The position numbers were made by a program, and so were the translations under genes. Positions 60,196-63,936 of a stretch of 64,000 nucleotides of DNA are shown here, piece by piece. The DNA is taken from positions 1 through 64,000 of the forward strand of contig CAJYQM010000487.1 in the NCBI GenBank assembly GCA_913777025.1, given 5' to 3'. The notes below the pieces were generated by a model. The model saw nothing but the letters and a program-made list of their open reading frames with translations, made no database searches and had not been told where the DNA came from. How positions within the stretch are numbered: position 1 is the first letter of the stretch; each line of letters begins with the position of its first letter. The stretch comes from an uncultured Massilia sp. (GTDB taxonomy: Bacteria > Pseudomonadota > Gammaproteobacteria > Burkholderiales > Burkholderiaceae_D).

Positions 60196-60624
60196 ATGCC
60201 TACCCCAACCAACCTGACCGTCCGTCAACAATCCAAACTCCTGGAAATCGCCTTCGACGACGGCAGCGAATTTTCCATCCCCTTCGAACTGCTGCGCGTG
60301 TATTCCCCGTCGGCGGCCGTCCAGGGGCACGGTCCCGGCCAGGAAGTGCTGCAGGTCGGCAAGCGCGACGTCGGTATCAAGGGTATCGAACCGGTCGGCA
60401 ACTATGGCGTCAAGCCGCTGTTTACCGATGGCCACGAATCCGGTATCTACACCTGGGATTACCTGTACAAGCTCGGCAACGAGCAACAGGCGCTTTGGCA
60501 TGACTACGTAGGCCGTTTGCATGCCGCCGGCTATTTCGGCGACACTGGCCGCGAGCCGGTGCCTGATGCGCCGGGCGCAACGTCAGGCGGCGGCTGCGGC
60601 AGCGGCAGCTGCGGTTGCCACTGA
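60196..60624 (+). CDS. DUF971 (gamma-butyrobetaine hydroxylase-like N-terminal) protein
   Basis: A 142-residue protein built of the DUF971 domain: LLEIAFDDGSEFSIPFELLR, SPSAAVQGHGPGQ, then ESGIYTWDYLYKLG. It ends with a Gly/Cys tail (GGGCGSGSCGCH) that could bind metal. DUF971 proteins are linked to iron-sulfur metabolism by neighbourhood and by similarity to a domain in gamma-butyrobetaine hydroxylase. The ATG was chosen because the longer frame would encode part of the REP element. In related genomes ubiE follows directly; here 2.6 kb intervenes. Confidence 0.88.
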   Translation: MPTPTNLTVRQQSKLLEIAFDDGSEFSIPFELLRVYSPSAAVQGHGPGQEVLQVGKRDVGIKGIEPVGNYGVKPLFTDGHESGIYTWDYLYKLGNEQQALWHDYVGRLHAAGYFGDTGREPVPDAPGATSGGGCGSGSCGCH

Positions 60625-60639
60625 CGGCTGTCTCACGCC

Positions 60640-60661
60640 ACCCGCTCCCGGAGGAGCGGGT
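60640..60661. repeat. Perfect 9-bp hairpin between convergent genes
   Basis: ACCCGCTCC-CGGA-GGAGCGGGT between the DUF971 and Ser-rich genes. No T tract follows on either strand. Confidence 0.65.
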
Positions 60662-60673
60662 CCCGCCGCGTGC

Positions 60674-61111
60674 TCAGAACTGACTGTCGCTCGACCAGCT
60701 GCTGCCGAAACTGTCGCTGCTCGATGACCAGCTGCTGCCAAAGCTGTCGCTGCTCGAGGACCAGCTGCTGCCACTGTCGAACGTCGAGTGGCTGCTGGTC
60801 ATGCCGTAGAAATTGCCATGGATATCCATGTCACCGACCATCGGCGTGCCGTCGATGTTGAACATGGGCCGGCTCGTGTCATCGAACATGCTGGTGCTGG
60901 ACATCATGTCGTCGGCCAGTACATTGTTCGTACTGTTGCTGAACATCCCTTCGAATCCCCCACCGCCGCCGACCATGCTGCCGACTCCGGTCGACCCAGC
61001 GCCCGTCAGCATTTTTTCATAGCTGGCGGCATTCCAGCTTTCATCCGTCCACTCGCTTGGTGTAGAGTTCTTGTTATTTGCACCAAAGAAATTTTTTAGC
61101 AGCTTCAGCAT
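60674..61111 (-). CDS. Small Ser/Gly-rich protein of unknown function with C-terminal 11-residue repeats
   Basis: A 145-residue protein that I do not recognise. The N-terminus MLKLLKNFFGANN is amphipathic, not a signal peptide. A Gly run follows (SMVGGGGGFEGMF, about 45-57), then a compact motif, MFNIDGTPMVGDMDIHGNFY (83-102), that looks conserved. The tail has repeats of SSWSSSSDSFG (2.8 copies, 115-143), encoded by 33-bp DNA repeats. GAGGA is a good ribosome-binding site. It is divergent from the HEPN-like gene with only 30 bp between start codons, so they probably share control. Confidence 0.72.
   Translation of the reverse strand: MLKLLKNFFGANNKNSTPSEWTDESWNAASYEKMLTGAGSTGVGSMVGGGGGFEGMFSNSTNNVLADDMMSSTSMFDDTSRPMFNIDGTPMVGDMDIHGNFYGMTSSHSTFDSGSSWSSSSDSFGSSWSSSSDSFGSSWSSDSQF
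60684..60776. repeat. 33-bp tandem repeat in the Ser-rich gene
   Basis: Two full 33-bp units (60711-60743, 60744-60776) and a 27-bp partial unit (60684-60710), differing at few positions; each begins CTGTCGCTGCTCGA. In-frame copies encode SSWSSSSDSFG, so length changes keep the frame. Confidence 0.85.
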
Positions 61112-61141
61112 AGCTTTCCTCAATATTTCTAAGAATAAACA

Positions 61142-62623
61142 ATGACGGATCTTAACAAGATTATTGCCGGTGCGAAATCTATTGAACGCATATTGACCGA
61201 GCAGTTCGGTGGTACGGGCCGGGGCATGCGGGAAAAGCTGGACAGTGCCCGCTATCCGATTCCCCAGCCGCTGCAGCAGCGCATCGCCTATCTGGCGCGC
61301 GTGCGCAACCGCTGCGTGCATGAGGAAGGCTATGAACTCAAGGATACCGAGGATTACGTGCGCAAGTGCGAATCCGTCTGCGCGGAGTTGCAGGAAGCGC
61401 ACGCGATCGCCATGCGAGTAGCCCAGCAGCGGACGCTCAGGCGCGGCAATGGCAACGTCAGGCTCCTGAAGCTGGGCGGCGTCGCGCTGGCCCTGGCCGG
61501 CGTCTGGTGGGCGATGCAGCCGTCGAGGCCGGACGCATCGATGCCCGAGGCGGAACTGGCCACGGTGCAAAATACGGAAGCGGATGCGCCATCGCCGGCG
61601 GCACCCGTGCCGGACGCTGCGCCGGCGCGCCGCCAGCAGGACACGGGTGCACCGGCCTCCAGCGCCGGGCAGGGCGAGAAGGCAAGTCCGCCGGTCGCCA
61701 TCGGTGCCCACCAGGGTATCGGCAACGACGTGCTTGCCGTGGAGTCGGTCGAGTTCGGCTACGCCAAGGGCGGTTTCAACGACACCGAGCCCAGGATCGC
61801 GGTCACCGTGCGCAACACCTCGGACCGTACCATCTCGTCGGCCCGGGCCGACGGGCGCCTGTATGTCGGCGGTGAAGCCACGCCCCTGGTCGACACGACG
61901 GCCGGCGACAAGCCGCTCTACCTGTTCTTCGGCGACGAAGGCCTGGCGCCGGGCGCGCGCAGGAAAGTATCGGTCGGCCTGTTCGGAGACGACCGCTGGA
62001 AACTGCCGGACGCCATCAATGCCGGCAAGCGCACGCTGTTGCTGCGCATTGCGCAAGTGTCCGACGGGCGCAAGGAAGACTTCGGCGGCGGGCCGCGCGC
62101 CTGGCCCGCGGTCCAGGCCGGCGCCAGCGCGGCCGCACCGAAGGCGGCCACCCCGACGACCGACGCGGCCACCTATCGCCAGCGCTTCCAGGCCGGCGAG
62201 CACGTGGTGCTGAGCGACAGCCGCCTTGACGTCGGCAAGGTCGCGCTGTCGCTGAAGGCGGACAGCTTCGGCGACAAGGAGCCGAACATCCAGCTGACGA
62301 TGACCAACCACGCCGGCCTGACGCTGAGCGATGCGGCCTTCCACCTGCAACTGTTCATCCAGGGCGAAAACAAGCCGGTCATCGATTCCGACCACAACAC
62401 GTTTTCCAAGGACGTGCGGCTGTATTTCGGCGATGCCGGCCTGGCCGATGGCGGCACCGTGAAACGCGAGCTCTACATCAACAGCTTCCATGACACGACA
62501 TGGAAGGCGCCCGATGTGCTGAAAGCGATCCGCGAGGGCAGGGCCCAGCTCGTGTTGCGGCTGGCATCGCTGACCGACGGCCGCAACAACACCTTGCAGA
62601 GCAAGGCGATCACGATCCCCTGA
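61142..62623 (+). CDS. HEPN-like / transmembrane / duplicated beta-domain protein, function unknown
   Basis: A 493-residue protein with an unusual layout. Residues 1-100 look all-helical with RNRCVH (R55, N56, H60), the R-N-x-x-x-H signature of HEPN domains (DUF4145-like). One membrane span follows (LGGVALALAGVWWAM, about 111-125), then a Pro/Ala linker and two copies of a beta-rich domain (about 195-312 and 362-482) sharing F-x-D-x-EP-x-I, L-x-F-x-GD-x-GLA-x-G, WK-x-PD and L-x-LR-x-A-x-x-x-DGR. The HEPN part would be cytosolic and the repeats periplasmic. No known system is recognised. The start has weak AAGAA. Confidence 0.75.
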   Translation: MTDLNKIIAGAKSIERILTEQFGGTGRGMREKLDSARYPIPQPLQQRIAYLARVRNRCVHEEGYELKDTEDYVRKCESVCAELQEAHAIAMRVAQQRTLRRGNGNVRLLKLGGVALALAGVWWAMQPSRPDASMPEAELATVQNTEADAPSPAAPVPDAAPARRQQDTGAPASSAGQGEKASPPVAIGAHQGIGNDVLAVESVEFGYAKGGFNDTEPRIAVTVRNTSDRTISSARADGRLYVGGEATPLVDTTAGDKPLYLFFGDEGLAPGARRKVSVGLFGDDRWKLPDAINAGKRTLLLRIAQVSDGRKEDFGGGPRAWPAVQAGASAAAPKAATPTTDAATYRQRFQAGEHVVLSDSRLDVGKVALSLKADSFGDKEPNIQLTMTNHAGLTLSDAAFHLQLFIQGENKPVIDSDHNTFSKDVRLYFGDAGLADGGTVKRELYINSFHDTTWKAPDVLKAIREGRAQLVLRLASLTDGRNNTLQSKAITIP

Positions 62624-62646
62624 GCCGCCCGGGTAGCGGAAAAAAT

Positions 62647-62673
62647 AAAAGCGCCGCATGCGGCGCTTTTTTC
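62647..62673. terminator. Bidirectional rho-independent terminator
   Basis: A perfect palindrome, AAAAGCGCCGCATGCGGCGC followed by TTTT, with T runs on both sides, between the HEPN-like gene (plus) and csp (minus). Confidence 0.9.
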
Positions 62674-62703
62674 ATGTCCCCGAAGGGAGCGTTCCCTGAG
62701 GAA

Positions 62704-62907
62704 TTACTGCGGCTGGATGTTCGCAGCCTGCTTGCCCTTCGGACCGGTGGTCACTTCGAAGCTGACGCGCTGGTTTTCAGCCAGCGACTTGAAGCCCTGG
62801 GCGTTGATTGCCGAGAAGTGCGCAAACAGGTCCTCGCCACCGCCGTCCGGGGTGATGAAGCCAAAACCTTTTGCATCGTTGAACCATTTAACAGTGCCAG
62901 TCGCCAT
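62704..62907 (-). CDS. Cold-shock domain protein (second copy)
   Basis: A 67-residue CspA-type RNA chaperone: [26 protein letters not shown], and [16 protein letters not shown]. It differs from the copy at 13583-13792 mostly after residue 30. A leader of about 90 nt from the promoter at 63005-63032 is expected. It stands between the HEPN-like gene and ubiE. Confidence 0.95.
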
Positions 62908-63004
62908 GTTTTTACTCGCTTAAGTTATGTGTGTTAATGGACTTTGTACGTCCGCTTGCCAGCCAGGTTCGCAGCAAGCGCATCCCCTTGCAAAGCCGAG
63001 TTTG

Positions 63005-63032
63005 ATTATATGGAGCAATTTGCACTTGTGGA
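63005..63032 (-). promoter_or_regulatory. Sigma-70 promoter of the second cold-shock gene
   Basis: Reading toward csp: TCCACA (63032-63027, four of six), 16-bp spacer, perfect TATAAT (63010-63005). Confidence 0.5.
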
Positions 63033-63166
63033 GCACAATCGATATCTTTTTTTTACTGCTGAGTTAGATAAATGTAACAAAAATGTCTTGAGTGCCACTT
63101 TCGTAAGCACAGTGGCCGTTTTTGGAGGCTAAGACGGGTTTAAGCATGGGTGAATGACGCGGCTTG

Positions 63167-63172
63167 TATAAT
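63167..63172 (+). promoter_or_regulatory. -10 element of the ubiE promoter
   Basis: Perfect TATAAT preceded by CTTG; no good -35. Transcription would start about 20 bases before the ubiE ATG. The remaining 291-bp csp-ubiE gap shows an AT-rich stretch (63003-63080) and no gene. Confidence 0.6.
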
Positions 63173-63198
63173 GCGTCAACATCAAACCGGCAGAGCAT

Positions 63199-63936
63199 AT
63201 GACCAACAACACCACCCATTTCGGCTACAAGACCGTCTCGGAGGACGAGAAGGTCCACGAGGTCGCCAAGGTTTTCCACTCGGTCGCGTCGAAGTACGAC
63301 GTGATGAACGACCTCATGTCCGGCGGCCTGCACCGTATCTGGAAAGCCTTCACCATTGCCCAGGCCGGCATCCGCCCGGGCTTCAAGGTGCTCGACATCG
63401 CGGGCGGTACCGGCGACCTGTCCAAGGCCTTTGCCAAGCAGGCCGGTCCCAGCGGCGAAGTCTGGCTCACGGACATCAACGAGTCGATGCTGCGCGTCGG
63501 CCGCGACCGTCTATTGAATAAGGGTCTGGTGACCCCCACCTTGCTGTGTGACGCCGAAAAACTGCCGTTCCCGGACAATTACTTCGACCGGGTCAGCGTG
63601 GCCTTCGGCTTGCGCAACATGACGCACAAGGACCAGGCACTGGCGGAAATGCGCCGTGTGCTCAAACCGGGCGGCAAGCTGCTGGTGCTCGAATTCTCGA
63701 AAGTGGCGACGCCGCTGCAGAAACCGTACGACGTGTACTCGTTCTCGGTGCTGCCGTGGCTGGGCAAGCGCATCGCGGGCGACGCCGAGAGCTACCGCTA
63801 CCTGGCCGAGTCGATCCGCATGCATCCTGACCAGGACACGCTGAAGTCGATGATGGAAGGCGCGGGCCTGGAACGCGTCCAGTACTACAACCTGACGGCG
63901 GGTGTGGCCGCTTTACACACCGGTATCAAACTTTAA
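63199..63936 (+). CDS. ubiE: Ubiquinone/menaquinone methyltransferase UbiE
   Basis: UbiE performs the C-methylation of ubiquinone (and menaquinone) precursors with SAM. The 245-residue protein has [20 protein letters not shown], motif [16 protein letters not shown] (about 64-78), [20 protein letters not shown], and [15 protein letters not shown]. It lies on the far side of an accessory block from its usual neighbours HIT and DUF971, and is followed 19 bp later by a gene for an exported protein. Confidence 0.97.

Follow-up and report, generated by a model that had tools for sequence, protein, structure and literature searches.

A membrane-tethered HEPN protein with two Ig-like domains in an uncultured Massilia sp., and its relatives with exchangeable envelope modules

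The window, by which we mean the whole stretch of 64,000 nucleotides that was analyzed, encodes a 493-aa protein of a rare layout (HEPN-TM), in which a HEPN domain comes first and is followed by one membrane span and then by Ig-like domains. The gene and the features around it are, from left to right:

60196-60621, plus strand: left conserved neighbor, presumably of DUF971 type, found in 62 of 62 genus genomes (own included)
60674-61111, minus strand: ORF of the acidic (pI 4.06), Ser-rich partner protein, 145 aa, with a GAGGA site and counterparts in Ferrimonas
60794-60868, minus strand: conserved partner motif NIDGTPMVGDMDIHGNFYG and its flanks, from sequence comparison
61142-62623, plus strand: ORF (ATG start) of the 493-aa protein with HEPN domain, membrane span, linker and two Ig-like domains
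61142-61441, plus strand: HEPN domain, residues 1-100, predicted to be cytosolic (AlphaFold model, VIA-align matches, 39-row alignment)
61304-61321, plus strand: RNxxxH motif, R55-N56-R57-C58-V59-H60, from the sequence
61457-61513, plus strand: single membrane span, residues 106-124 (hydropathy, helix in the model)
61517-61696, plus strand: Ala/Pro-rich acidic linker (pI 4.3), residues 126-185, from the sequence
61700-62107, plus strand: Ig-like beta domain 1, residues 187-322 (homology to domain 2 and to the C-terminus of the relative L035)
62177-62620, plus strand: Ig-like beta domain 2, residues 346-493 (AlphaFold model, generic beta-sandwich matches)
62647-62670, no strand: palindromic hairpin resembling a terminator, between the HEPN-TM and csp genes, a weak call (2 sites versus 2.0 expected in shuffles)
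62704-62907, minus strand: ORF of 67 aa, the right neighbor, presumably of cold-shock type (csp)
63199-63936, plus strand: right conserved neighbor, presumably a UbiE-type methyltransferase, found in 61 of 62 genus genomes (own included)

The original prediction, made from the sequence of the window, described a 493-residue ORF with an RNxxxH motif, and R55, N56, and H60 are indeed present at 61304-61321. The single membrane span also stood, as one hydrophobic helix, but hydropathy and the model place it at about residues 106-124, a few residues before the 111-125 given for it. The two C-terminal domains, described as duplicates, are homologous (47 of 142 residues identical [33%]; BLASTP E = 3e-23). 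The N-terminal HEPN domain is basic (computed pI of 8.9), and no clear Shine-Dalgarno-like site precedes the gene. This anatomy, the HEPN fold model, the domain duplication, the relatives with their varied envelope modules, the association with the partner, and the accessory site are the established part of the explanation developed below. The 493-aa query had no family in Pfam, PADLOC, NCBIfam, or PHROG beyond chance (best Pfam E = 0.1; best PHROG E = 0.095); against DUF4145 (PF13643) it scored 12.6 bits (E = 0.15) and did not reach the gathering cut-off of 23.1. No anti-phage defence model of PADLOC 2.0 matched the query or the 145-aa partner, and the same search on nine relatives and one Ferrimonas partner gave weak matches only, the best being LeoBC (E = 2e-5) for the tandem plasmid protein L008.

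The gene had been placed in an accessory block between conserved neighbors, which the comparison of genomes of the genus bore out, since the flanking genes occur in 62/62 and 61/62 genomes and the interval between them is variable. Of the 54 genomes (own included) with both genes on one contig and strand, 53 have an interval of 217 bp to about 45 kb, and the 54th has one of 1.1 Mb. At E = 0.001, the protein was matched in only two of the 61 other genus genomes, by a C-terminal fragment (G064) and by an N-terminal-only relative (G003). Weak matches above that limit were seen in G010, G033, and G037 (E = 0.0016 to 0.007). G064 retains a beta-domain fragment of about 90 residues next to its csp gene, suggesting that a HEPN-TM gene was probably once present at the same site there. 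The variable site and the rarity of the gene in the genus fit an accessory module. Between the DUF971-type and UbiE-type genes (60622-63198 in the window; L094-L113), genus members carry long ORFs that differ from one genome to another, and in several of them the cold-shock-type gene adjoins. The presence of related genes at syntenic sites of the genus was not borne out: in the 20 intervals read, the only related piece was the beta-domain fragment of G064, and searches for the HEPN profile and the partner motif came up empty. In one genus member (L002, 1219-1746), a relative of the N-terminal HEPN part that probably has two spans is encoded near a piece of an RdgC gene and a VRR-NUC gene, possibly in a mobile element.

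The proposal that the N-terminus forms a HEPN-type helical bundle was supported by a confident model, the best structural matches of which were mostly HEPN proteins. The AlphaFold model was built on a 39-row alignment (A7) in which most rows had been retrieved by the RNxxxH motif. It gave a mean pLDDT of about 96 for residues 1-100, with helices at 3-22, 29-35, 42-60 (ending at H60), and 69-101, followed by the span. The top VIA-align matches were two entries of HepS (Z = 9.7, rmsd of 3.1 over 97 aligned residues; Z = 8.9, rmsd of 2.0 over 95), and after these came 2hsb, HEPN toxins, YutE, and MntA-HepT. HEPN proteins made up 10 of the best 13 rows, six of them recognizable as such from entry titles, and the remaining three were two designed bundles and a DnaK model. 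The other four of the ten, HepS (two rows), YutE, and SO_3166-SO_3165, are ones that we take to be HEPN proteins. Foldseek gave no match to the N-terminal model at E ≤ 0.001 (best SO_3166-SO_3165; E = 0.099, probability 0.96), and profile searches of PDB sequences with the A7 and A9 alignments gave none. Since helical bundles can reach VIA-align Z values below 13 by chance, so that such values are not decisive, the HEPN assignment rests on the fold, the motif, and the bridge through two relatives that pass Pfam cut-offs, L008 for HEPN_RiboL-PSP (38.6 versus 28.4 bits) and L064 for DUF4145 (32.5 versus 23.1 bits). The structural part of the earlier interpretation is thus supported by the model, and R55, N56, and H60 are likely to be an RNA-cleaving motif.

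By its N-terminus, the protein falls into a HEPN subfamily, so far unnamed, with the signature GxG[RK]G..RNxxxH and, usually, a membrane span after the domain. Its members range over Vibrionaceae, Ferrimonas, Planctomycetota, small Escherichia coli plasmids, and two viral contigs. A scan of genome contigs with a four-row alignment, which selects on the GRG or RNxxxH patterns, yielded 60 loci out of 119 candidate stretches; 39 were in Vibrionaceae, and the others were in Ferrimonas, Colwellia, Pseudomonas protegens, Planctomycetota, Lentisphaerota, Sulfurimonas, a cyanobacterial MAG, and others. Five loci were picked up by the GRG pattern and missed by the RN pattern, and RNxxxH was present in every one of them. 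The scanned members with GxGRG...RNxxxH were mostly under curated Pfam cut-offs. The span is not universal, with no clear one in L009/L024, L023, and L085. Scans of genome and viral contigs with the single protein found no relative, but small family alignments did find some. The only other match of the family search with the A1 alignment (L016) was rejected as spurious; it falls in a frame that we take to be RmuC-like.

Relatives of the N-terminus were also found by tblastn in 13 plasmid records. Seven of these were read, the other six having the same identity and score as a read record and being taken as near-copies. Six of the seven forms keep GxG[RK]G[LM] and RNxxxH with a span after the domain; the Hydrogenophaga plasmid form has lost RNxxxH and no span was seen in it. 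Tandem HEPN domains ahead of the span occur in L008 and L013 (E. coli plasmids) and in L064, L073, and L075 (Thermoguttaceae MAGs). The two genes listed for an E. coli plasmid of 2,078 bp (L012; NZ_CP145633.1) encode a helix-turn-helix protein and a HEPN-TM protein, although the PLSDB table is incomplete. That this mini-plasmid form is common in E. coli was ruled out, as a near search found it in 1 of 5,426 genomes.

Most relatives keep R55, N56, and H60, and neither of the two outcomes named beforehand as refuting, an N-terminal fold other than a HEPN bundle or a lack of conservation of R55 and H60, was seen. A profile search without motif selection of 398 Pseudomonadota genomes gave matches in 19 of them, own included, and RNxxxH was kept in 12 of the 18 unselected relatives but missing in the other 6 (RNxxxN in 3, from genus g209; lost in 3). 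Not every member can therefore be a nuclease of the usual kind, and the catalytic motif, as read from these sequences, is usual but not universal in the subfamily. Three g209 genomes (L119, L120, and L122) show the change of the motif histidine to asparagine, as if catalysis were being lost. The Vibrionaceae HEPN-TM gene, of about 120 aa, has a fixed chromosomal place near DUF2500 and YhhN genes (e.g., L040, 6001-6366).

Such losses would be expected if the protein were a noncatalytic membrane scaffold or an RNA-binding protein, with the HEPN domain serving dimerization or RNA binding and the state of the envelope being signaled otherwise. Four of the six motif-less relatives belong to g209, with proteins that are Vibrio-like by sequence, and the steady setting of the Vibrionaceae-type gene (YhhN gene cluster at 36 and DUF2500 gene at 35 of the 60 loci) resembles that of a housekeeping gene. 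However, the motif is intact in the window protein and in both phage-borne forms, and R, N, and H are present in every one of the 39 rows of A7, most of them chosen by motif. We consider this explanation unlikely.

The part of the protein beyond the span is best understood by comparison with the relatives. The span (here taken as 108-124) is preceded by four K/R in 15 residues and followed by one in 15, which fits an inside N-terminus, and positive-inside counts were mixed in the five long relatives tested. The predicted periplasmic exposure of the beta domains is supported, at the level of sequence, by a Colwellia relative with a PG_binding_1 domain and by apparent lipoproteins with the same beta domain. 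The AlphaFold model of domain 2, from a three-row alignment, has beta strands and one helix and matched many Ig-like or beta-sandwich domains at Z values of 7 to 9 (best Foldseek E = 0.003); we limit the claim to the fold class because the mean pLDDT is only 70 and the matches are generic. At E = 0.001, the beta domain occurs in 5 of 343 family genomes: the own genome, the G064 fragment, and three apparent lipoproteins (L019-L021) with single copies of the domain and a lipobox read from the sequence.

A homologue of the same architecture was found in a Proteobacteria MAG (L035), matching over both ends (E = 3e-19) and having one Ig-like copy, and Ferrimonas and Colwellia encode the same arrangement with other periplasmic domains. 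The Ferrimonas-type proteins have a different C-terminal domain, which is also duplicated (E values between halves of 2e-22 in L028, 2e-42 in L030, and 1e-37 in L121). The Colwellia protein (L083) carries one copy of this Ferrimonas-type domain and a PG_binding_1 domain (40.7 versus 23 bits), which suggests that the C-terminus is periplasmic. When the seven long proteins are mapped on a tree of 37 HEPN domains, four label changes are required, and well supported branches force at least two of these; the envelope modules were therefore probably gained on more than one occasion. The window row, on a long branch and in no starred set, is not firmly placed on this tree.

The partner gene is divergent from the HEPN-TM gene and lies 30 bases off its start. 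The protein begins with MLKLLKNFF, a short N-terminus that looks amphipathic, continues with the motif NIDGTPMVGDMDIHGNFYG (pattern NxxGxPM..D..GN.YG), and ends in a Ser/Asp-rich stretch. The partner ORF falls within an open frame of 661 aa that runs opposite to the HEPN gene; high G+C can yield such frames, but GAGGA is found five bases before the partner's ATG at 61111. The same kind of protein is encoded directly upstream of HEPN-TM in Ferrimonas. In the Ferrimonas-containing genus of G981, the long HEPN-TM gene occurs in 5 of 14 genomes and the motif protein in exactly those 5, always within 500 bases. The probability that two independent 5-of-14 sets agree is 1/C(14,5) = 1/2,002 = 0.0005, with relatedness ignored; since the two genes are adjacent, their co-occurrence shows joint inheritance and not independent events. 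Neither the window partner nor its Ferrimonas counterparts had a Pfam match, and the partner proteins scanned belonged to no curated NCBIfam or PHROG family.

Such a pair could be a toxin-antitoxin system, in which HEPN-TM would be a constitutively capable RNase toxin, the acidic protein its antitoxin, and the periplasmic domains would only anchor or orient the toxin. The genes co-occur and adjoin in all five cases of the Ferrimonas-containing genus, the partner is acidic (pI 4.05 to 4.06 in the window, L028-L030, L121, and L136 forms) versus a basic HEPN domain, and GAGGA precedes the partner, whereas the HEPN gene lacks a clear Shine-Dalgarno site. We nevertheless regard this as unlikely: the partner motif, searched with a strict regular expression, was at none of the non-Ferrimonas loci among the 60 of the genome scan, 39 of which are from Vibrionaceae, the motif protein also exists without HEPN, and a simple toxin needs no large and varied periplasmic domains. 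L035 and L083 also gave no partner motif, with a regular expression strict enough to miss L029.

The occurrence of the motif away from HEPN-TM tells more about the partner. In the genus of the window, it was found at 7 places in 6 of the 62 genomes, own included. A HEPN profile search of the flanks of 11 motif loci away from HEPN-TM (10 distinct places, L089 and L139 being one), with three true HEPN members as positive controls, found no HEPN, which rules out that the motif is specific to HEPN genes. In L089-L093 and L141, the proteins with the motif either are short and begin with a stretch that looks amphipathic or have predicted spans ahead of the motif. It thus marks a wider class of proteins, perhaps at the membrane, that is paired with HEPN-TM, and not a HEPN-specific antitoxin. 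The partner motif, as GLPM...GN.WG, is present near the C-terminus of membrane proteins encoded between traG and traT of F-like plasmids (L090, 3587-4288; L092, 3482-4267), an interval that we take to be the usual site of the entry-exclusion gene traS.

Two IMG/VR contigs, out of 35 candidate stretches, carry HEPN-TM genes of 137 to 138 aa, and both forms keep RNxxxH. The gene order is HEPN-TM, a lipoprotein-like gene, a gene of 199 to 204 aa that is presumably tail I, and J (L026, 424-5668; L027, 4968-8033), J being recognized by Pfam FNIII-A_GpJ (162.7 bits in L026 and 111.6 in L027). In L027, there is one extra ORF after HEPN-TM and J is only an open piece of 195 aa, so that this stretch may be rearranged. 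A tblastn search of a GenBank phage collection found no phage record with a relative. Phages often carry extra genes at this place, and those found next to tail genes commonly serve in exclusion or defence.

The closest structural match points in the same direction. HepS of the Gifsy-1 prophage (PDB 9oij and 9oik; known here from entry titles), at Z values of 9.7 and 8.9, was deposited in a complex with lambda J, and the phage-borne relatives of the query sit near J. The protein might then be an effector of the superinfection-exclusion type that recognizes phage tail-tip proteins, as HepS seems to, in accordance with the two viral contigs, where J, or a piece of it, follows downstream of HEPN-TM. 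However, the J context is limited to these two forms, and the window genes in the interval of 55 to 64 kb look like housekeeping genes by their presumed names. In addition, the aligned part of HepS is scattered over residues 34-200, the profile search of PDB sequences gave no match to it at E ≤ 1, and no paper on HepS was found in the open-licence literature. A role of this type seems improbable to us.

The HEPN superfamily, with its DUF4145, RiboL-PSP, Swt1, and HepT types, shares the helical bundle and RxxxxH with the query, as far as the available part of PMC3710099 describes it; the query adds the GxGRG loop signature, a span after the domain, and periplasmic domains, and lies below every Pfam cut-off. 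The same source, in 2013, divided the membrane-spanning HEPN proteins of bacteria into three groups and proposed that their external domains sense stimuli and alter RNA stability, so that a membrane HEPN protein with external sensing was already in print. According to the part of that paper available to us, the query fits none of the three layouts. The first group has an N-terminal span with WP and then a DUF4145-like HEPN domain, and the second a span and then an Abi2/SWT1-type HEPN domain, whereas in the query the HEPN domain precedes the span, which has no WP. The third has a HEPN domain, two spans, and a C-terminal zinc ribbon, whereas the query has one span and no cysteine after it. The acidic partner is a further addition relative to these groups as described there. 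The HEPN/MNT (HepT/MntA) toxin-antitoxin systems likewise have the HEPN fold, RxxxxH, and a two-gene arrangement, but the neighbor of the query encodes an acidic low-complexity protein without a Pfam match and not a nucleotidyltransferase. In the open-licence literature on periplasmic, membrane-anchored, peptidoglycan-binding, or DUF4145 HEPN proteins, no article other than PMC3710099 describes this protein by its title or the start of its abstract, although it may be in print elsewhere, and the accessible part of PMC7159879 describes no HEPN protein with peptidoglycan binding. New in the present work are the HEPN subfamily whose envelope modules are exchangeable, the partner, and the link of the phage forms to J.

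The explanation that we prefer, and to which we give an even chance of being right, is that a HEPN ribonuclease in the inner membrane carries a sensor on the envelope side and has the partner as a silencer or coupler. It is favored by the HEPN model, the bridge to Pfam, the retention of the motif in 12/18 relatives, the same chassis with varied modules, the beta domain of the apparent lipoproteins, the adjacency of the partner, the proximity of J, and the variable site with the rarity of the gene. Against it stand the lack of a curated family for the query, the structural scores that are not decisive, the loss of the motif in 6/18 relatives, the span not being universal, the mixed positive-inside counts, the HEPN-free occurrences of the partner motif, and the negative search for that motif at L035 and L083. 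The HEPN domain would lie in the cytosol, with R55, N56, and H60 as the predicted RNA-cleaving motif, one helix would pass through the membrane, and the flexible acidic linker would hold the two Ig-like domains in the periplasm. An alteration of the envelope, for instance a phage particle, a tail protein, or damage to the cell wall, may be bound there by the Ig-like pair. HEPN enzymes work as dimers, and binding would rearrange the paired HEPN domains so that RNA is cut and growth or phage multiplication is stopped. The acidic partner would be at the inner membrane face, probably through its amphipathic N-terminus, and would either silence the basic HEPN domain or couple the signal to it.

A broader reading, which we offer tentatively and think more doubtful than the envelope-sensor explanation itself, is that of a two-gene plug-in module for immunity or alarm, not described in the literature searched. 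The HEPN-span chassis would have had its envelope sensors swapped and duplicated repeatedly, and the acidic motif protein would hold it in check at the inner membrane face. If this is true, the two genes would turn an event on the outer side, for example, phage attachment, directly into RNA cleavage inside the cell and would thus be a bacterial counterpart of Ire1. For most anti-phage RNases known so far, the trigger is intracellular. A HEPN RNase that is connected across the membrane to domains on the envelope side could come into action before DNA enters or while it does so. The suggestion of 2013 that membrane HEPN proteins mediate stimulus-dependent RNA decay (PMC3710099) would thereby become testable on a single gene that has clear predicted catalytic residues, sensor domains that can be exchanged, and a candidate for its partner.
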